64,000 nucleotides of DNA from Pseudodesulfovibrio sp. zrk46 (GTDB taxonomy: Bacteria; Desulfobacterota; Desulfovibrionia; Desulfovibrionales; Desulfovibrionaceae). Position 1 is the stretch's first letter, and each line of letters begins with the position of its first letter. The translations under genes and the position numbers were made by a program. A model generated the notes under the pieces. It did no database searches and had not been told where the DNA came from. It worked only from the letters and a program-made list of their open reading frames with translations. Below are positions 10,255 to 33,094 of the stretch, piece by piece. The stretch spans positions 1,242,001-1,306,000 of the forward strand of contig NZ_CP051216.1 of assembly GCF_012516435.1 (NCBI RefSeq). Direction: 5' to 3'.

Positions 10255-10263
10255 GATTTTCAA

Positions 10264-10339
10264 TGGTGCTCGGGGACAGAATTGAACTGCCGACACGGGG
10301 ATTTTCAGTCCCCTGCTCTACCGACTGAGCTACCCGAGC
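10264..10339 (-). tRNA. tRNA-Phe (GAA), copy 1
   Basis: A 76-base cloverleaf: acceptor GCTCGGG with CCCGAGC, D-arm GCTC...GAGC, anticodon loop CTGAAAA (anticodon GAA), T-arm loop TTCAATT, and an encoded ACCA end. It is identical to the copy at 15033. Its 3' end faces the accessory island, the usual side for tRNA-targeted integration. Confidence 0.97.
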
Positions 10340-10354
10340 GCCGGTGAGGAGTTG

Positions 10355-10383
10355 TGTTTAGCGAAGCAGGAGTTGCTTGGCAA
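10355..10383 (-). promoter_or_regulatory. Probable tRNA-Phe promoter (copy 1)
   Basis: On the minus strand TTGCCA, 17 bases, then TAAACA, ending 15 bases before the tRNA 5' end. The same arrangement is kept upstream of the second tRNA-Phe copy (TTGCAA-N17-TAAACA), so the box positions are supported by duplication. Confidence 0.5.
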
Positions 10384-10414
10384 GTCTTTTTTTCTGCTTA
10401 CGATTCTTATCAAG

Positions 10415-15022: not shown

Positions 15023-15032
15023 ATATCTTCGA

Positions 15033-15108
15033 TGGTGCTCGGGGACAGAATTGAACTGCCGACACGGGGATTTTCAGTCCCCTGCTCTACCGACTGAGCT
15101 ACCCGAGC
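15033..15108 (-). tRNA. tRNA-Phe (GAA), copy 2
   Basis: All 76 bases are identical to the tRNA at 10264-10339, including the encoded CCA and the GAA anticodon. The flank on its 5' side is also duplicated for about 55 bases with three differences. Confidence 0.97.
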
Positions 15109-15123
15109 GCCGGTAAGGAGTTG

Positions 15124-15152
15124 TGTTTAGCGAAGCCGGAGTTGCTTTGCAA
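15124..15152 (-). promoter_or_regulatory. Probable tRNA-Phe promoter (copy 2)
   Basis: TTGCAA, 17 bases, then TAAACA on the minus strand, at the same distance from the tRNA as in copy 1. Confidence 0.5.
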
Positions 15153-15224
15153 GTCTTTTTTTCATTTCATCAAACTTTTTTGACTTCTCTTCACTTATTT
15201 TCCTCCCCAAAAAGAAGACAGAGC

Positions 15225-25540: not shown

Positions 25541-25658
25541 TAGAGAAAAGGTACCGCTACGGGGTACCAGTTATAATGGAAATAATGGGCTCACCCCCCT
25601 TAGGGTGCAAAATGAGGTTGTTGCATCCAGAAATAGGTAACCAAAAATGGAGGATAAT

Positions 25659-25979
25659 ATGTCTCGCAAAATCTCTCTGGCCGTCGCCACCGCTCTGTTG
25701 ACCGTTTTCGCTGTTTCCGCAGCTTTCGCCATGGGTGGCGGCAACGCCCGCAAGGGTAAGTTCCTGTACCGCAAGAACTGCCGCTCTTGTCACGGCAGCA
25801 CCGCTTCCGACCTGAGCCCCGCATCCAAGACTCAGGCCGAGTGGAAGGCCACCTTCGCCGACAAGACCAAGATCAAGTGTTCCGGCGATTGGACCATCTC
25901 CGATAAGGATCTCAACGACATCTTCACCTACCTGCACGACTACGCTTCGGACTCCCCGTCCCCGGCCAAGTGCAGCTAA
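25659..25979 (+). CDS. Periplasmic monohaem cytochrome c
   Basis: A 106-residue exported cytochrome. The chosen ATG (25659) has GGAGG seven bases upstream; an ATG four codons earlier would place the ribosome-binding site inside the gene. A signal peptide (about 1-24, ending AFA) is followed by a haem site CRSCH and later KIKCSGDW. One haem is expected, carrying electrons in the periplasm. It is the first gene after the CstR-type promoter and lies 160 bases before the molybdopterin reductase. Confidence 0.88.
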   Translation: MSRKISLAVATALLTVFAVSAAFAMGGGNARKGKFLYRKNCRSCHGSTASDLSPASKTQAEWKATFADKTKIKCSGDWTISDKDLNDIFTYLHDYASDSPSPAKCS

Positions 25980-26141: not shown

Positions 26142-28337
26142 ATGTCAGATTCCAGTCACAAGTTATCACGCCGCGATTTTTTCCGGGCCTCTGGCCTGCT
26201 CGCGGCGGGTGCGGTAGGCGGCCCCGCAGTTCTGGGCGGCCTGAAGAAGGCGCAGGCGGCGCAACCCATGTCCAAGGCGTGGGATTCCAAATTTTCCGTC
26301 TGCGACATCTGTTTCAACAAGTGTGGTCTCATTGCCCGCGTGGAAGACGGGGTGGTCAAGAAGCTCGACCCCAACCCCAAGTTCCTGAAGTCGCGCGGCA
26401 TGCTGTGCGCCCGCGGCAATGCAGGCATCAGCCAGGTCTATGACCCGGACCGCCTCAAGTACCCCATGCTGCGCAAGGGTGCACGCGGCGAGGGCAAGTG
26501 GCAGCGCATCCCGTGGGATGAAGCCCTTGATATGGCTGCCGAGAAGATGCTGGACGTACGCAAGAAGTACCTCCCTTGCGGCCACCTCTTCTCCGCAGGC
26601 ACCGACCTGCACTCCAAGTTCGTCGGCCGCCTGGCAGAGGTCTACGGCTCGTTCAACGTCACTTCGCACGAGTCTCTCTGTCTGGTCTCCGGCAACCGCG
26701 CCTTTCTCGACACATACGGCGAAGTGCCCTTCCCGGATGTGCTCAACTCCAAGTACGTGCTCATGTGCGGCGCCAACCGCTTTGAAGCGTTGGTCACGCC
26801 GGACTCCATCGACCTGATGACCGCCATGCGTGAGAACGGCTGCAAGCTGGTCACGCTGGACCCGCGCTACACCAAGACCGCAGCCCTGTCGGACGAATGG
26901 TACGCCATCAAGCCCGGCACGGACATGGCCTTCATGCTGGCGCTGGCCCACGTCATCATCAATGAGAAGTTGTACGACCCGCAGTGGATCGCGGAGAAGA
27001 CCTACGGCATCGAGCAGCTGACCGCGCATGTGCAGAAGTACACCCCGCAGTTCGCCGCCGAGCAGTGTCAGATTCCGGCAGACGCCATCGTGCGCATTGC
27101 CCGCGATCTGGCTGCCAATGCCCCGGCCTCCATGGTCTACCCCGGCCGCCGCACCTCGGACTACGAGGACTCCACCCAGATCCGCCGCGCCTTTGCCATC
27201 GTCAACGGCCTGCTCGGCAACTGGGACCGTCCCGGTGGTCTGCTGGCAGCCCGTCAGGTGGGCCTCAAGGGCGTGCCCTACGATGCCCCGTGGTACGACG
27301 ACAACCACTACGAGCGCATCGACGAGCACAAGGTGCCCATGATGTTCGAGCACGAAGGCTCGTTCCTCATCACCCGCGACGCAGTCCTGGCCGACGATCC
27401 TTATGAAATCCGCGGCTGGCTGATCTACAAGACCAACCCCATGGGCACCGCGCCCAACCGGCAGAAGACCATCAAGATGATGGACAAGATGGATTTCGTC
27501 ACCGTCATCGACATCGCCATGTCCGACACCGCCTGGTATGCGGATCTGGTGCTGCCGTCCCAGTCCTATCTGGAACGGTACGACCCCTGCTCCGGTTTGC
27601 AGGGCTCCGTTGCCTGCGCCTGCGTGGTCAAGCGCGACCCGGTCATCGAGCCCATGTACGAATCCCGTTCCTGCTTCGACATCATGAAGGGACTGGCCAA
27701 CCGGATGGAGCTGGGCGAATACTTTGATTTCACCATTCCCGAGTACCGCCAGAAGCAGCTCGCAGGGCTGCCCAAGGCCGAAGAGATCATGGAGCGCGAC
27801 GGCGTCTACTACAACCCGTCCAAGGTATACGGCATCTATGAGGGCAAGGTGTACAAGACCCTGTCCAAGAAGGTCGAGCTGTACAACCAGCGCTACGAGC
27901 AGATGGGTATCGACCCGCTGCCCAACTACACCGAACCGACCAATATTCCCAAGAACCAGTTCCGCCTGATCGTGGGCCGCGATGCACTGACGACTCAGAC
28001 TTCCACGGCCAACAACGCCCTGCTGAACCAGTTCAACCCCACCAATACCCTGTGGATCAACACCGAGTCCGCGCAGAAGCTTGGCATCGCCCACGGCGAA
28101 CTGGTGCAGGTCACCAGCTCCGTAGGCACACAAGAGCTCAAGGCCAATGTCACGGACAAGATCAGGGGCGACGCGGTGTATATGCTTTCCGGCTACAACA
28201 CCCTGTCCACCATGCAGCACCTGTCGCATGGCAATGGCGCGTCCATCAACGAACTGCTGGAAGACGACTACGATGAAGTCACCGGCAACGCGTCCATGCA
28301 CACGACATTTGTCAGCGTAACAAGGAAGGTGGCGTAA
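26142..28337 (+). CDS. Molybdopterin sulfur-compound reductase, catalytic subunit (PhsA/PsrA-like)
   Basis: A 731-residue molybdo-bis(pterin) enzyme of the DMSO-reductase superfamily. The Tat signal SRRDFFRAS (9-17) sends it folded to the periplasm. It has a [4Fe-4S] site CDICFNKC...C (Cys54, 57, 61, 89), a probable Mo ligand Cys180 in SHESLC, and a C-terminal molybdopterin dinucleotide-binding domain. Length and partners (a four-cluster ferredoxin and a membrane cytochrome b) match thiosulfate, polysulfide or tetrathionate reductases. The surrounding rhodaneses and CstR-type regulator favour polysulfide or thiosulfate, which is inference. GGAG precedes the ATG. The stop overlaps the FeS subunit start. 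Confidence 0.88.
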   Translation: MSDSSHKLSRRDFFRASGLLAAGAVGGPAVLGGLKKAQAAQPMSKAWDSKFSVCDICFNKCGLIARVEDGVVKKLDPNPKFLKSRGMLCARGNAGISQVYDPDRLKYPMLRKGARGEGKWQRIPWDEALDMAAEKMLDVRKKYLPCGHLFSAGTDLHSKFVGRLAEVYGSFNVTSHESLCLVSGNRAFLDTYGEVPFPDVLNSKYVLMCGANRFEALVTPDSIDLMTAMRENGCKLVTLDPRYTKTAALSDEWYAIKPGTDMAFMLALAHVIINEKLYDPQWIAEKTYGIEQLTAHVQKYTPQFAAEQCQIPADAIVRIARDLAANAPASMVYPGRRTSDYEDSTQIRRAFAIVNGLLGNWDRPGGLLAARQVGLKGVPYDAPWYDDNHYERIDEHKVPMMFEHEGSFLITRDAVLADDPYEIRGWLIYKTNPMGTAPNRQKTIKMMDKMDFVTVIDIAMSDTAWYADLVLPSQSYLERYDPCSGLQGSVACACVVKRDPVIEPMYESRSCFDIMKGLANRMELGEYFDFTIPEYRQKQLAGLPKAEEIMERDGVYYNPSKVYGIYEGKVYKTLSKKVELYNQRYEQMGIDPLPNYTEPTNIPKNQFRLIVGRDALTTQTSTANNALLNQFNPTNTLWINTESAQKLGIAHGELVQVTSSVGTQELKANVTDKIRGDAVYMLSGYNTLSTMQHLSHGNGASINELLEDDYDEVTGNASMHTTFVSVTRKVA

Positions 28338-29080
28338 TGGCACAACAACTCGCCATGGTCATCGATGCGACCAAGTGCATCGACTGCAAGGGCTGTGTCG
28401 CAGCCTGTAAGGTAGCCAACGAGATTCCCGAAGGGCAGTGGCGTAACTGGATCAAGCAGGACGAGGGTCCGGCCACACCCGGCCCCCGCACCGGCGGCAA
28501 GGCCCGTTTCCAGCCCGGCGCATGCATGCACTGTGAGAACCCCACGTGCGTCAGCGCATGCCCCACCGGCGCCACCTACAAGGACAAGGAAACCGGCGAA
28601 GTGGTCATCAACAACGACCTCTGCATCGGTTGCGGCAACTGCATCCCGTCCTGCCCGTACGACGCCCGCTTCCGCAACGAAGTCACGCGCAAGGCAGACA
28701 AGTGCAACTACTGCCCCGAACGACGCGCCCAGGGCATCCCCCCGGCATGTGTGGACACCTGTCCCACCAAGGCCCGCGTCTTCGGTGATATCAATGACCC
28801 CGAATCCGAGGCTGGTCGCCTGTACCGCAAGAACAAGGCGCAGATTCAGCGCATTGCGGCCAAGACCGACACCAAGCCCAACATGTTCTACATCGGCGAT
28901 CCCGGCCTCAAGGACTGGGGTGGCGAGGCAGTGGTGCCCGCCTCTATGGTCGCCATGAAGGAGTCCGCGCCGTTCATCAAGGCCATGGTCGGCCTGTCCG
29001 GCCTCGGCGTACTCGCCATGCTCGGTCGCCAGCTCTTTGTCGGCTCCGACGATTCCCACAAGGAGGATTCCGATGCCTAA
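28337..29080 (+). CDS. Four-cluster FeS subunit of the reductase (PhsB/PsrB-like)
   Basis: A 247-residue electron-transfer subunit. It has four [4Fe-4S] sets: CIDCKGCVAAC, CMHCENPTCVSACP, CIGCGNCIPSCP and CNYCPERR...CVDTCP. No signal peptide is present, so it should ride with the Tat-exported catalytic subunit. Near the C-terminus one hydrophobic helix (MVGLSGLGVLAML) could anchor it to the membrane, as in HybA/FdnH-type subunits. It starts on the last base of the catalytic gene and overlaps the cytochrome b gene by eight bases. Confidence 0.9.
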   Translation: MAQQLAMVIDATKCIDCKGCVAACKVANEIPEGQWRNWIKQDEGPATPGPRTGGKARFQPGACMHCENPTCVSACPTGATYKDKETGEVVINNDLCIGCGNCIPSCPYDARFRNEVTRKADKCNYCPERRAQGIPPACVDTCPTKARVFGDINDPESEAGRLYRKNKAQIQRIAAKTDTKPNMFYIGDPGLKDWGGEAVVPASMVAMKESAPFIKAMVGLSGLGVLAMLGRQLFVGSDDSHKEDSDA

Positions 29081-29789
29081 GCTCCACAAGCGACACGACA
29101 AGTCGGATATCTTCATCCACTGGTTCAACGCGGCCTGCTGGCTGCTCCTGCTCCTCACCGGCGTGGGACTGATCCAGAACCCGGCCATCGACCCGTTCGG
29201 CTCCGGCTATCCCGAAGCCCTGCGCAACATGGTGGGCGGAGGCGGCAACCTGCTCATGATTCATGAGTACATCGGCATCGCCTGGATTATGGGCTTTGTC
29301 TTCTACCTGCTCATCAACGCCAAGGGCGCCATCTTCTTCCTCGGTGAAGTCTTTGCCGTGAGCCCGGCCCGCGACATGGGCTGGATGATCAAGAAGATGG
29401 TCCTCATGACCCTGGGGCCCAAGCCCCTCAAGATGATCGGCATGGACCCGAACCTGCCGGATCAGGGGTATTACAACATGGGCCAGAAGGCCTTTGCACA
29501 GGCCTCTGTGGTGGGCGGCATCGTCATCGCCGTCACCGGCGTGATCATGTTCCTGTCCGACCGCTCCTTTGGCGCGGAAGCCACCGGCATGGTCTCCTGG
29601 GCCGTCACCCTGCACTTCATCTCTGTGGGTCTGGTCTTCGCCGGGCTGCTGGTCCATGTTTACATGGCCGCCATCTCCCCCGAGGAACGCCCCGGCTTCA
29701 AGTCCATGTTCACCGGCGTAGTGCCCGACGACTACGCCAAGCATCACCACCGCCTGTGGTGGAATAAGATCAAGACCGAGGGTGAGTAG
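29073..29789 (+). CDS. Membrane cytochrome b subunit of the reductase
   Basis: A 238-residue integral membrane protein with four main helices of the FdnI/cytochrome b561 type. Candidate haem ligands are His in FIHWFNAAC, MIHEYIG, VTLHFISVG and LLVHVYM. The start is ATG at 29073 behind AAGGAGG. It would pass electrons from menaquinol to the FeS subunit. This differs from the NrfD-type anchor of Psr complexes and resembles the haem b-type anchor of PhsC. Confidence 0.88.
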   Translation: MPKLHKRHDKSDIFIHWFNAACWLLLLLTGVGLIQNPAIDPFGSGYPEALRNMVGGGGNLLMIHEYIGIAWIMGFVFYLLINAKGAIFFLGEVFAVSPARDMGWMIKKMVLMTLGPKPLKMIGMDPNLPDQGYYNMGQKAFAQASVVGGIVIAVTGVIMFLSDRSFGAEATGMVSWAVTLHFISVGLVFAGLLVHVYMAAISPEERPGFKSMFTGVVPDDYAKHHHRLWWNKIKTEGE

Positions 29790-29885: not shown

Positions 29886-30980
29886 ATGCACAAAAGATTA
29901 CTTACCGTTGTCATGATGCTGGTCTTCGCCATGACCGCCATGGCCGGTGTCTCTTTGGCCAGTGAAGCAAAGCAGTTCAAGAAGTTCCATTCTATCGTGG
30001 ACTACAAGTTCGTGGCCAAGTACGCCAAGATGCCCAAGCCCAAGGGCGTGATGATCGTCGATTCTCGTCCGTTCAAACCCAAGTACATCGCCGGTTACAT
30101 TCCGACTGCCGTGTCCATCCCGACCAGCCAGTTCGACAAGATGACCGACAAGCTCCCCGCCAACAAGGATGACCTGGTCATCTTCTACTGCGGTGGCTTC
30201 AAGTGCCCCCTGTCTCACAAGGCCGCTTTCAAGGCTGAGGCAATGGGCTACACCAACGTCAAGGTCTACGCTGCCGGTTTCCCGGACTTCAAGAAGAAGG
30301 CCGCTTACTACTCCATCGGCATTGAGACCCTCAAGGACATGATGGGCAATGGCGACAAGTTCGTTGCCATCGACGCACGTCCCTACAAGAAGTACCTTGC
30401 CGGTTCCGTTCCGGGCGCCCTCGGCATCCCCGAAAAGGAATTCGCCGACAAGCGCGACATGCTGCCCATCGGCAAGATGGACACCACCCTCGTGTACTTC
30501 TGCGGCGGCTACAAGTGTGCCCTGTCTCACAAGTCTGCGGTCAAGGCCCGCTACCTCGGCTACAAGAAGGTCGTGGTTGCTGAAGCCGGTTACCCCGCAT
30601 GGAAGGAAATGTACGGCGGCAGCGCAGCCATGGAAGTCAAGGCTGGCGAAGCTGAAGGCGCCGTGGACACCGAATGGTTCCTGGCCACCCTGAAGGACAA
30701 TCCTTCCTCCATCACCCTGATCGACGTGCGTGACGCCGAAGAATACGCAGCCGGTCACTTCCCGTCTGCCATCAACATGACCGCCGACCAGATCGAGAAG
30801 AACATCGACACCATCCCCACGGATAAGCCGATCGTCTTCTCCTGCGCCTCCGGCGCCCGTGCTGGCGAAGCCTACTACATCTTCATGGACATGAAGCCCA
30901 ACGTGAAGAACGTCTTCTACCTCGAAGCCACCAATGACTTCGGCGAAGACAACAGCTACGAAGTCCATCCCAACAAGTAG
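29886..30980 (+). CDS. Periplasmic triple-rhodanese protein
   Basis: A 364-residue exported protein with three rhodanese domains. The signal peptide spans about 1-26. Active-site loops are FYCGGFKCPLSHKAA in domain 1, YFCGGYKCALSHKSA in domain 2 and FSCASGARAGEA in domain 3. Rhodaneses carry sulfane sulfur as a cysteine persulfide, so this protein probably binds, hands over or detoxifies polysulfide-derived sulfur for the reductase. Domains 1 and 2 have a second Cys five residues after the catalytic one; domain 3 does not. GGGAG precedes the ATG. Confidence 0.9.
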   Translation: MHKRLLTVVMMLVFAMTAMAGVSLASEAKQFKKFHSIVDYKFVAKYAKMPKPKGVMIVDSRPFKPKYIAGYIPTAVSIPTSQFDKMTDKLPANKDDLVIFYCGGFKCPLSHKAAFKAEAMGYTNVKVYAAGFPDFKKKAAYYSIGIETLKDMMGNGDKFVAIDARPYKKYLAGSVPGALGIPEKEFADKRDMLPIGKMDTTLVYFCGGYKCALSHKSAVKARYLGYKKVVVAEAGYPAWKEMYGGSAAMEVKAGEAEGAVDTEWFLATLKDNPSSITLIDVRDAEEYAAGHFPSAINMTADQIEKNIDTIPTDKPIVFSCASGARAGEAYYIFMDMKPNVKNVFYLEATNDFGEDNSYEVHPNK

Positions 30981-31059: not shown

Positions 31060-32070
31060 ATGCCGAGACACGTATCCTCCTTTGCATGCCTGCTCTTCGC
31101 CCTGTGCTTTTTTCTCACCCCGACCGCCCACGCAGACGACGCGGAGATCTGGTGGGGCTCGGCCGTCAAGGACGCCGAAGAGGACGGGTACAAGCTCATT
31201 GACACAAAGGAACTGGCCGCCCTGCTCAAAGCCGACTCCGACGTCCTCATCCTTGATGTGCGCGCCGACTACGAGCATGAAGCCGGACGGCTGCCCGGGG
31301 CTTCCAATCTGGAATTCGACCTCGGCGACCGCATTGATCTGCCTGAAGACAAGCGCAAGGCGTTCATCGAACTGGTTGGTCCCGACAAGAAGCGGCAGCT
31401 GGTCATCTACTGCCGCAGCTTCCGTTGACTGCGCTCCGGAATTGCATCGCGCTGGGCAGCGCGACTCGGCTACACCGAAGTATATCGGTACCCCGCAGGC
31501 TTCCACGGCTGGAAGGCTCACCATCCTGAATTGGTGGAGGGCTCGGAAGAGAAGAAGCATGTGCTGACTGTGGGCGAGAACTTCCCGGATTGTCGCGTGG
31601 CCGTGCTCAACGGCGACGAGGATCGTCAGTATCTCGGCCTGCCGGACAACGCGAAGTGGCTGGCTCTGTCTGATCTCAACGCCCGCTTCGTGCTCATCCA
31701 GTTGTACAACACCATGTGCCACGACTGTGTGAACGAGACCAAGATGCTCACCCGCTTCTTTGAGGACGTGGAAAACGACCCGGTGCTGTCAGGCCGACTC
31801 AAGATCATCGGACTCGGCATATACGACTCCAACCGGAGCGTCATGCGGTTCAAAAAGCATTACGACGTGCTCTACCCGCTCTTTTCGGACAAGCACGGAC
31901 AGATCTTTGAATGTCTGGGTCAGGCGGAACTGCCACTGGCCTATCTCCTCCGGGCCAAAGGCGACGGCACCTGGATCATTGAACTGATCAAGCGGGGCTA
32001 TTTCGAGCCGGACGAAACATTTCTGCAGACGCTCAAGCTGGCCGTACAGCAGGCAGACGAAATTGATTAG
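31060..32070 (+). CDS. Rhodanese-thioredoxin fusion, probable selenoprotein (in-frame UGA, Sec123)
   Basis: Read through one TGA (31426-31428), this is a 336-residue exported protein. It has a signal peptide (about 1-25), a rhodanese domain (about 45-150) and a thioredoxin-like domain (about 165-336) with CHDC (Cys220, Cys223). GAGGAG precedes the ATG. Around the TGA the sequence is YCRSFR-U-LRSGIASRW. It aligns without gaps with YCGGFKC of the neighbouring rhodanese, TGA falling on the second Cys. A 7-bp hairpin (31447-31464) follows. The frame stays the same on both sides, with no other stop until 32070. The alternative is a nonsense-mutated gene giving a 122-residue fragment and a separate ORF starting at 31531. 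Selenocysteine is the better explanation, but no selA/B/C/D gene is in the window. Confidence 0.75.
31426..31464 (+). promoter_or_regulatory. UGA codon with candidate bacterial SECIS hairpin
   Basis: TGA at 31426 is followed after 18 bases by TCGCGCT-GGGC-AGCGCGA (31447-31464), a perfect 7-bp stem with G first in the loop. The first loop G is about 25 bases from the TGA. Bacterial SECIS elements have a short stem, a small loop with an early G, and lie in the coding region just after UGA. Confidence 0.65.
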
Positions 32071-32699
32071 GCTGCCAGCTTCTTGAGCACTGCCAGCGCA
32101 TGGCTGGTCGCTGCGACATACACGGCATTGGGCTCGCCCTTGGAAAGCGCCTCCTGGAATCGGAGCATCCACGGGAGCATTTCAATACGGGCGAAATCAA
32201 TGGCCGTCTGTTCCAGCTCGGATCGATCTTCGGTCCAGGCGGTGACGAGCAGGTGGTAGAGGTATTCCAGTTCGAGCGCTACGTGGTCCGGTGGCTCGTT
32301 GGAATCGAGGGAAAGTTCAAGGCCGCACTCGTTGAGCCGTTCCTGCATGGCCAGCGCGGTGTCGCCCATGGTGCGGGCCGCCGTGTCCTGATGGCAGGAT
32401 TGATACAGGGGCGCGACAACGCCGCCCTGTCCGGCAACAAAGAGGCGGACGTACTCGGTTTCGAGATCGTCCATGGCCACCGAGTCGGACGAAGCGGGTA
32501 ATGTGGCTTGAAGGTTCTTGAGAGAGCGGGTAAGGTCGTCCGCCTCGCCGGAGGCACGAGCCATGAGTTCGGGCACCCCGGCATCAATAAGGGCGACCCA
32601 GGTCCCGGCATCGGGACCATGAAAGATGGTGGCGAGCAATTCTATATTGTTGAGAATGAACACACGCTCGTCGGTATCTATGAATTTCAAGTCGGACAT
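32067..32699 (-). CDS. TorD/DmsD-family chaperone for the molybdoenzyme
   Basis: A 210-residue all-helical cytoplasmic chaperone. The family signature EPPDHVALELEYLYHLL (E-PDH-xxE) is present in the middle. Such proteins bind the Tat signal of a molybdoenzyme and keep it in the cytoplasm until its cofactor is inserted; the likely client is the reductase at 26142. The start is ATG at 32699 behind AGGGGG. It is divergent from the CstR-type gene across a shared operator and overlaps the selenoprotein gene tail-to-tail by four bases. Confidence 0.85.
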   Translation of the reverse strand: MSDLKFIDTDERVFILNNIELLATIFHGPDAGTWVALIDAGVPELMARASGEADDLTRSLKNLQATLPASSDSVAMDDLETEYVRLFVAGQGGVVAPLYQSCHQDTAARTMGDTALAMQERLNECGLELSLDSNEPPDHVALELEYLYHLLVTAWTEDRSELEQTAIDFARIEMLPWMLRFQEALSKGEPNAVYVAATSHALAVLKKLAA

Positions 32700-32723
32700 G
32701 GGGTCCCCCTGTTCGAAGTTATA

Positions 32724-32743
32724 TACCCTACTTCCGTAGGGTA
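32724..32743. promoter_or_regulatory. CsoR/CstR-type operator between chaperone and regulator genes
   Basis: TACCCTACTTCCGTAGGGTA is a perfect 8+8 inverted repeat with a 4-base centre. It lies 24 bases upstream of the chaperone ATG and 57 bases upstream of the regulator ATG, so one site can control both. It has the TACCC...GGGTA core of CsoR-family operators and resembles the site at 25521. Confidence 0.65.
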
Positions 32744-32800
32744 CGGCAGATTGATCGGTGTATCCGATATGCACGAGGTCATATACTAGAGGAGTTTGCG

Positions 32801-33094
32801 ATGAACGCAAGTGCCAACGAGTTGGAACAGGAACGGATCAAGAAAAATGTCATGTCGCGCATGAAGCGCATCGAAGGACAGGTCCGCGGCATCCAGCGCA
32901 TGATCGATGAAGGCAAAGAGTGTGAAGACATTCTCGTCCAGGTCCGTGCGGTGCGCTCCGCCCTGCAATCCGCCAACAAGCTGATTCTGAAACGCTATAT
33001 GCTCAAGTGTCACGCCGACACCGTCAACGGCGAGAACCCGGAAGAATCCCTCGACAAATTCATCAAGGTACTGACCGGATTCATCGAAGGCTAA
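32801..33094 (+). CDS. CstR-type persulfide-sensing repressor (CsoR/DUF156 family)
   Basis: A 97-residue four-helix repressor of the CsoR/RcnR/FrmR family. Cys41 and Cys70 are 29 residues apart, as are Cys31 and Cys60 of CstR, where they form the persulfide-sensing pair. Tyr66 replaces the His that CsoR needs for copper. The sensor should therefore respond to sulfane sulfur, not copper. It probably autoregulates through the palindrome at 32724 and controls the reductase locus through 25521. GAGGAG precedes the ATG. Persulfide sensing is inferred from residues and context. Confidence 0.85.
   Translation: MNASANELEQERIKKNVMSRMKRIEGQVRGIQRMIDEGKECEDILVQVRAVRSALQSANKLILKRYMLKCHADTVNGENPEESLDKFIKVLTGFIEG

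Follow-up and report, generated by a model that had tools for sequence, protein, structure and literature searches.

Does the lone UGA in the active-site loop of a rhodanese gene from Pseudodesulfovibrio sp. zrk46 specify selenocysteine (Sec), and if it does, what might Sec contribute at that position of a sulfurtransferase? The gene occupies positions 31060-32070 on the plus strand of the window, by which we mean the whole 64,000-nucleotide stretch of DNA analyzed here, and is predicted to encode a selenoprotein of 336 residues. Re-reading the sequence bore out the initial annotation of a frame that runs continuously through one TGA: the sole break between 31060 and 32067 is the TGA at 31426-31428, codon 123 of the 336-codon frame, which closes with a TAG at 32068-32070.

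Domain architecture of the predicted selenoprotein

The predicted protein couples a rhodanese domain (residues 49-153; Pfam Rhodanese, PF00581, 57.8 bits against a gathering score of 22.2) to a ResA/AhpC-TSA-like thioredoxin domain (residues 197-288; Pfam AhpC-TSA, 29.9 bits against a cut-off of 26), and its N-terminus looks to the eye like a signal peptide. The thioredoxin fold with a CHDC motif that had been proposed downstream of the UGA is present, with the motif at residues 220-223 (31717-31728, plus strand) and matches to both AhpC-TSA and ResA. An AlphaFold2 model of the 336-residue protein, built with Cys in place of Sec, reached a pLDDT of 90.5 and a pTM of 0.68, and its top Foldseek match is ResA (1su9; E 1.4e-9, TM by target 0.83). 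In the canonical rhodanese loop the catalytic Cys follows a strand and the end of the loop precedes a helix; in the model, residue 118 comes after strand 114-117 and residue 123 before helix 125-135. Cys118 (TGC at 31411-31413, plus strand) is the expected persulfide-forming Cys of the loop and the UGA, predicted to be Sec123, its sixth residue. Both Cys118 and column 123, with Sec written as Cys, are invariant across the 61 rows of alignment A1, from which loci L055, L086 and L091 were left out.

The fusion is one of two architectures in which the Sec-rhodanese gene occurs, the other being a stand-alone rhodanese of 151-178 residues, a range that depends on the start codons chosen in our analysis. 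Stand-alone Sec-rhodaneses occupy the same operon place as the fusion, and the CxxC motif, kept in 37 of the 42 fusion rows of A1, is absent from five rows of one genus. The earlier description of a rhodanese-thioredoxin fusion thus stands for the gene in the window, but the fusion is inessential to the Sec site, as both the stand-alone forms and the losses of CxxC indicate. The five fusions that have lost CxxC and carry UGA at codon 123 are L054, L056, L058, L059 and L061 (genus g7). When three other fusions were scanned with Pfam, AhpC-TSA passed its cut-off in L047 (29.0 bits), scored below it in L053 (19.2 bits) and was not found in L054; a further locus, L086, is without a recognizable N-terminal half. 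Annotation can cut such genes at the UGA, which would hide the ResA-like domain.

Codon 123 across homologs

Relatives of the gene were collected at several depths. In the order, 62 of 348 genomes matched at E <= 1e-30, a proportion that marks the Sec-rhodanese family as patchy, and 92 of 148 relatives' genomes matched at E <= 1e-10, with many of the matches confined to a single rhodanese or thioredoxin domain. The first 64 loci collected, which include L079 and L086 from the weaker matches of the latter search, carry TGA (57), TGC (6) or TGT (1) at codon 123. When 395 genomes of the phylum were searched with the alignment, 112 had a match at E <= 1e-25; the matches listed were mostly to the rhodanese or thioredoxin part alone, and among them five besides the window gene were near full length, all from one other family (2 TGA, 3 TGC). 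An earlier scan of named genomes with a single protein as query found no relative, and an alignment scan of named genomes returned 38 loci, 29 in the family and nine from distant Mesorhizobium; ten of the 29 were not copies of other loci (7 TGA, 3 TGC). A plasmid search yielded six records with partial matches of less than 60% identity. The family is carried by Pseudodesulfovibrio (several same-genus loci), Desulfonatronum, Desulfonatronovibrio, Desulfonatronospira, Desulfarculaceae and Desulfobacteraceae.

Once exact copies had been removed and the nine distant Mesorhizobium loci and seven CGFxKC-type rhodaneses from the phylum search dropped (all of them Cys at this column), codon 123 proved to be TGA in 65, TGC in 12 and TGT in one of 78 distinct loci, with no other codon in any. 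The suggestion that the UGA sits on a conserved Cys column is thereby upheld, as only Sec or Cys is found there in all 78. UGA at this codon occurs both within and beyond the order. Downstream, from codon +14 onward, the window gene differs from 23 orthologs 1000, 707 and 2268 times on codon positions 1, 2 and 3, respectively, a codon-periodic pattern typical of translated, selected sequence and in keeping with the undamaged frame first proposed. The main rival, one that the initial annotation had itself argued against, is a broken gene whose Cys codon has recently mutated to a stop or been misread in sequencing. It has in its favor that TGA lies one base from the Cys codons TGC and TGT, but it is opposed by the codon-periodic constraint and excluded by the conservation of UGA at the same codon in many genera (65 of 78 distinct loci, within and outside the order), so that its likelihood is negligible.

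The genome itself (one contig, 4.08 Mb) contains the Sec machinery on which such a reading depends, namely tRNA-Sec (81.8 bits), SelB (391.9 bits), SelA (613.8 bits) and SelD (325 bits), each above its cut-off; SelD has one in-frame UGA, in the context AAGUAAK. The Sec/Cys-only column and the machinery in the genome together support the selenocysteine reading of the UGA, and from this sequence evidence we regard codon 123 as almost certainly a Sec codon.

Cys forms account for 13 distinct loci (L050, L055, L064, L077, L083, L084, L085, L123, L124, L127, L145, L146 and L147); natural Cys forms in related strains, such as that of Pseudodesulfovibrio pelocollis SB368 (L141), are ready-made comparisons. 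tRNA-Sec is present in 70 of the 71 genomes searched, including all seven Cys-form genomes tested (L050, L055, L064, L077, L083, L084 and L085, seven of the 13 distinct Cys loci), so that in these genomes the Cys forms cannot be put down to a lost Sec machinery, and Sec is not indispensable. The sole genome without tRNA-Sec, G029, also lacks a match to the gene at E 1e-30.

We built a tree from 81 rhodanese domains with column 123 masked and with the truncated L086 and the copy L091 left out; it requires at least seven Sec/Cys changes within the 67 family rows. It splits the family from seven TsoB-type and seven CGFx rows with a support of 99/94; the columns are few and the two outside groups are joined by long branches, which leaves the deep order and the direction of the Sec/Cys changes uncertain.

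RNA signals downstream of the UGA

The SECIS-like hairpin that had been reported after the UGA is present as described, with a 7-bp stem beginning 18 nt past the UGA and an apical GGGC loop (31447-31464, plus strand), but it is weaker evidence than was claimed. Its energy of -10.3 kcal/mol was matched or bettered by 6.7% of 300 synonymous shuffles (p 0.067), for which reason we do not accept the hairpin energy of a single sequence as proving a SECIS, and the minimum free energy fold of a 45-nt stretch is a competing structure, not the hairpin.

Genes were also compared as groups. We required a SECIS form that we set after the bacterial consensus: a stem of at least 4 and a loop of 3-8 in which a G comes early, at a distance of 14-33 nt from the UGA. 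The best such hairpin averaged -10.1 kcal/mol in 57 Sec genes vs -6.2 kcal/mol in their shuffles (individually p <= 0.05 in 8 of 57), and -7.1 vs -6.1 kcal/mol in seven Cys genes (p <= 0.05 in 1 of 7), means that come from related genes and carry no formal p-value. Whole-region folding energy showed no excess, with a mean z of -0.39 in the Sec genes and -0.34 in the Cys genes. Covariation among 34 chosen sequences was modest, with a score that shuffles attained in 2 of 500 cases; double changes occur in two stem pairs, and one of these pairs runs through a G-C, G-U, A-U series. A register slid by +2 pairs fewer cells than the hairpin register (67.3% vs 87.1%) but scores 0.143 vs 0.142, and we therefore do not take covariation to prove a SECIS.

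At the RNA level the strongest evidence comes from synonymous constraint after the UGA, measured in 24 same-genus Sec genes including that of the window, and it supports the predicted SECIS hairpin. Across codons +1 to +13 the codon entropy falls to a level that none of 20,000 permutations matched (11 columns), and a dip is likewise seen over codons +5 to +13 (p 0.0011; 8 columns). Among these 24 genes, the codon after the UGA is CTG in all, and the Arg codon before it is AGG in 19; the window gene has CGT.

Association with a molybdoenzyme operon

The genes upstream follow a conserved operon order of cytochrome c, PsrA/PhsA-type molybdoenzyme, FeS subunit, cytochrome b561, triple rhodanese and Sec-rhodanese, all on the plus strand in the window. 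At its head lies a small c-type cytochrome (25647-25979; Cytochrome_CBB3, 32.4 bits) with one CxxCH motif (CRSCH), followed by the PsrA/PhsA-type molybdopterin oxidoreductase (26142-28337). The best NCBIfam model for the latter is PhsA thiosulfate reductase (NF012032), which at 528.3 bits was the best of the scan and below the cut-off of 694; its best solved relative is 2vpw, deposited as a thiosulfate reductase (E 3.3e-112), and an SRRDFF motif near its N-terminus reads as a twin-arginine signal. Next come a 4Fe-4S electron-transfer subunit (28337-29080; Fer4_11, 94.8 bits), a cytochrome b561-type membrane subunit (29073-29789, with a start codon chosen here; Ni_hydr_CYTB, 68.8 bits) and the triple rhodanese partner Rho3 (29886-30980), which has three stretches matching Pfam Rhodanese, two with CxxxxC loops and one with a CASGAR loop. 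The molybdoenzyme, FeS and cytochrome b561 subunits resemble a Phs/Psr-type membrane complex, which would face the periplasm. Past the Sec-rhodanese gene are a TorD/NarJ-family chaperone on the minus strand (32067-32810; Nitrate_red_del, 81.6 bits) and, on the plus strand, a CsoR-family repressor (32801-33094; Trns_repr_metal, 95.8 bits) whose PDB relatives are also CsoR-family and which may sense persulfide and not copper (CstR-like).

We are highly confident that the Sec-rhodanese gene belongs to the molybdoenzyme operon. The molybdoenzyme was found in 57 of 63 fetched stretches (L047-L109), in all five second-family loci and in seven of the ten new named loci. Of the six stretches without it, five (L055, L062, L066, L069 and L074) are short or clipped at a contig end; in the sixth, L086, none of the operon was seen in 14 kb. 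In nine loci with other gene orders, the Sec-rhodanese gene lies directly after the cytochrome b gene (L149, L150, L151, L153, L155 and L156) or between the cytochrome b and chaperone genes (L065, L066 and L074), placements from which we conclude that the association survives rearrangement. Across 36 same-genus genomes, which are kin and not 36 independent observations, the gene, the molybdoenzyme and the triple rhodanese (E 1e-30, 1e-200 and 1e-80, respectively) were all present in 29 and all absent from six; the remaining genome, G029 (82% complete, 470 contigs), gave only a 462-residue molybdoenzyme match.

Elsewhere in the window, a direct repeat of 139 nt (10256-10394 and 15025-15163, 4769 nt apart), 96% identical between its copies, contains two tRNA-Phe(gaa) genes. 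By eye, the ORFs between them resemble those for an ABC transporter of the iron type and for an exporter like MntP, and we think a mobile element between the two tRNA genes unlikely.

A UGA in the partner rhodanese

The active-site loop of the Sec-rhodanese, YCRSFRU, can be set against those of the triple rhodanese, which read YCGGFKC (residue 101), FCGGYKC (205) and SCASGAR (319). The gapless alignment with the first two that was described initially is correct, and the spacing from the loop to the next GY is equal in both proteins as had been noted, although it measures 14 positions, not 15 (U123-G137, C107-G121 and C211-G225).

The partner can itself carry a UGA. In eight of 69 distinct relatives of the triple rhodanese, an in-frame TGA stands where a CxxxxC loop has its second Cys, at loci L087 (4384-4386, plus strand), L062, L063, L065, L066, L068, L070 and L075. 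The first of these is a Pseudodesulfovibrio MAG with the partner loop YCGGFTU, and the seven others fall in genera g45 and g56, which include Desulfonatronovibrio and Desulfonatronospira. The partner of L070 has UGA at both loop positions (YUQNLAU), giving a locus with up to three UGA codons, and that of L075 has two rhodanese stretches. In the seven loci covered for hairpins (L087, L063, L065, L066, L068, L070 and L075), the best one has a GGA loop and starts 22 nt after the UGA. Two different rhodaneses encoded in one operon are thus predicted to have Sec at an equivalent point of the loop, which suggests a specific chemical need for it there.

Possible roles of the Cys/Sec loop

We consider it probable, from domain content and context, that the gene encodes an exported selenoprotein with Sec at UGA 123, a Cys/Sec-loop rhodanese serving the operon molybdoenzyme, and its CxxxxU loop is probably derived from a CxxxxC rhodanese. 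In the mechanism that we propose, Cys118 would take sulfane sulfur as a persulfide from thiosulfate, polysulfide or a neighboring rhodanese, and Sec123 would attack this persulfide, releasing hydrosulfide and forming a Cys-Sec bond. The bond would then be reduced by a thioredoxin-like partner, which for the window protein would be the fused CHDC domain and for stand-alone or CxxC-less forms another protein; intramolecular reduction cannot be general, since the five CxxC-less fusions keep Sec and many relatives have no thioredoxin domain. The rhodanese would in this way act as a sulfane-sulfur reductase or a redox-gated carrier for the PsrA/PhsA-type molybdoenzyme. A resolving Sec reset by thioredoxin-like domains is suggested by the loop geometry, by the fused thioredoxin-like domain and by TsoB, whose rhodanese is joined to DsbD and thioredoxin domains as if such loops were reduced by thioredoxin-like partners; we hold the case for it to be evenly balanced.

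The main rival to a resolving Sec is a carrier role, in which sulfane sulfur would sit on Sec123 in perselenide form, or pass back and forth between Cys118 and Sec123, before being handed to the molybdoenzyme or the triple rhodanese, the thioredoxin-like domain serving only to keep the site reduced. The polysulfide carrier Sud is the model for such a role, which accords with the PsrA/PhsA-type subunits and further rhodaneses of the operon and with stand-alone Sec-rhodaneses that lack a thioredoxin domain and occupy the same operon place. TsoB and the fusion, however, both couple the loop to thioredoxin-like modules, suggesting a redox cycle at the loop, and we see the carrier as a serious possibility that is nonetheless the less expected outcome. 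A periplasmic peroxide or disulfide reductase that guards the molybdoenzyme, its rhodanese loop being a seleno-thiol redox center uninvolved in sulfur transfer, appears improbable. The matches of the C-terminal domain to AhpC-TSA and ResA would suit it, as would the opinion, given in the available text of PMC13188914, that redox roles are likely for most selenoproteins of unknown function. It is harder to reconcile with an operon made of sulfur enzymes, with the invariance of Cys118 in A1 and with the recurrence of UGA in the multi-rhodanese partner (8 of 69 distinct relatives).

It is very improbable that the UGA is a selenium-dependent switch, yielding a deliberate 122-residue protein when selenium is absent and the full-length form only when it is available. 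Termination and Sec insertion compete at any Sec UGA, which lends the idea some general plausibility, but the 122-residue form would end before residue 123 and the model's loop helix 125-135 and could hardly fold, and Cys forms exist in which switching is impossible.

Returning to the Cys/Sec pair, one may speculate that the operon as a whole is a selenium-dependent extracytoplasmic sulfane-sulfur reductase, in which one or two seleno-rhodaneses would cleave S-S bonds through Cys/Sec loop pairs and act with the Psr/Phs-type molybdoenzyme in the thiosulfate, polysulfide or sulfur respiration of sulfate reducers; we offer this proposal tentatively and consider it rather doubtful in its entirety. 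If true, it would mean that a sulfurtransferase fold has been turned into a reductase by a Cys/Sec pair within the rhodanese loop.

Comparison with known systems

The nearest described family is TsoB (NF045694), listed in Table 1 of a 2026 inventory (PMC13188914) as a rhodanese/DsbD fusion-like selenoprotein with a UxxxxU motif and credited there to Haft and Tolstoy 2025. In TsoB, too, the equivalent second position of the rhodanese loop is Sec (YUAGLTUVRSDS in L113), and a thioredoxin-like module lies on the same chain. TsoB differs in carrying Sec at both loop positions, where the window protein has a single Sec (CxxxxU), and in its DsbD membrane part, which the window protein lacks (336 residues vs 582 for L113); the window protein also falls in a separate clade of the rhodanese-domain tree. 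Membership in TsoB was rejected, as the match of the window protein to the model is confined to residues 11-155 and reaches 95.9 of 805 bits, and the gene has one UGA and no DsbD match; L113 scores 978 bits against the same cut-off of 805 and carries DsbD and thioredoxin domains. L113 alone among the seven TsoB-type loci was scored on the TsoB model, the others being named by their UxxxxU loop, and in 14 kb around each of the seven we found none of the 11 window proteins sought and no molybdoenzyme operon.

Other rhodanese selenoproteins are more distant. The forms printed in the table of PMC13188914 are UxxS, UxxG, CxU, UxxG and UxxxxU, and neither a CxxxxU rhodanese form nor the word itself occurs in the available text of that paper. 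Forms 1, 2 and 4 (UxxS, UxxG) share with the window protein a Sec in a rhodanese-like protein, but by these table entries their motifs start with Sec, whereas the window loop starts with Cys and ends with Sec. Form 3, the rhodanese-related (seleno)protein NF041203 with its CxU motif, resembles it in being a rhodanese with Sec near a Cys, but the spacing differs and the window protein reaches 27.5 of 115 bits, below the cut-off. Earlier rhodanese selenoprotein forms appear in PMC9312934, the accessible part of which prints one motif, CxU. A table row of PMC5029168, 'Sulfurtransferase homologous to a rhodanese-like protein', names a predicted selenoprotein of the same type that, compared by name alone, may be the same family. 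The main text of PMC12013277 makes no mention of rhodanese, all six family proteins scanned scored below the NCBIfam cut-offs, and a literature search of titles and abstract openings, a body of text that holds few subscription papers, gave no CxxxxU Sec-rhodanese among the matches listed. CxxxxU adds to the Sec-rhodaneses a subtype that has its own motif, comes in two architectures and keeps a conserved genomic partner, a combination that makes its function testable in culturable relatives.

For the operon, two systems invite comparison. The MOLY cluster of sulfur disproportionators (PMC12998232) is similar by description in its exported molybdoenzyme A and B subunits, TorD chaperone and occurrence in Desulfobacterota, but the available text of that paper contrasts MOLY with transmembrane-anchored enzymes, and 'seleno' does not occur in it. 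The other comparison is with the thiosulfate/polysulfide reductases PhsABC and PsrABC, to whose catalytic, FeS and cytochrome b-type membrane subunits the operon neighbors are similar; beyond this arrangement the operon has a cytochrome c as well as rhodaneses, of which one or two are predicted to be selenoproteins.
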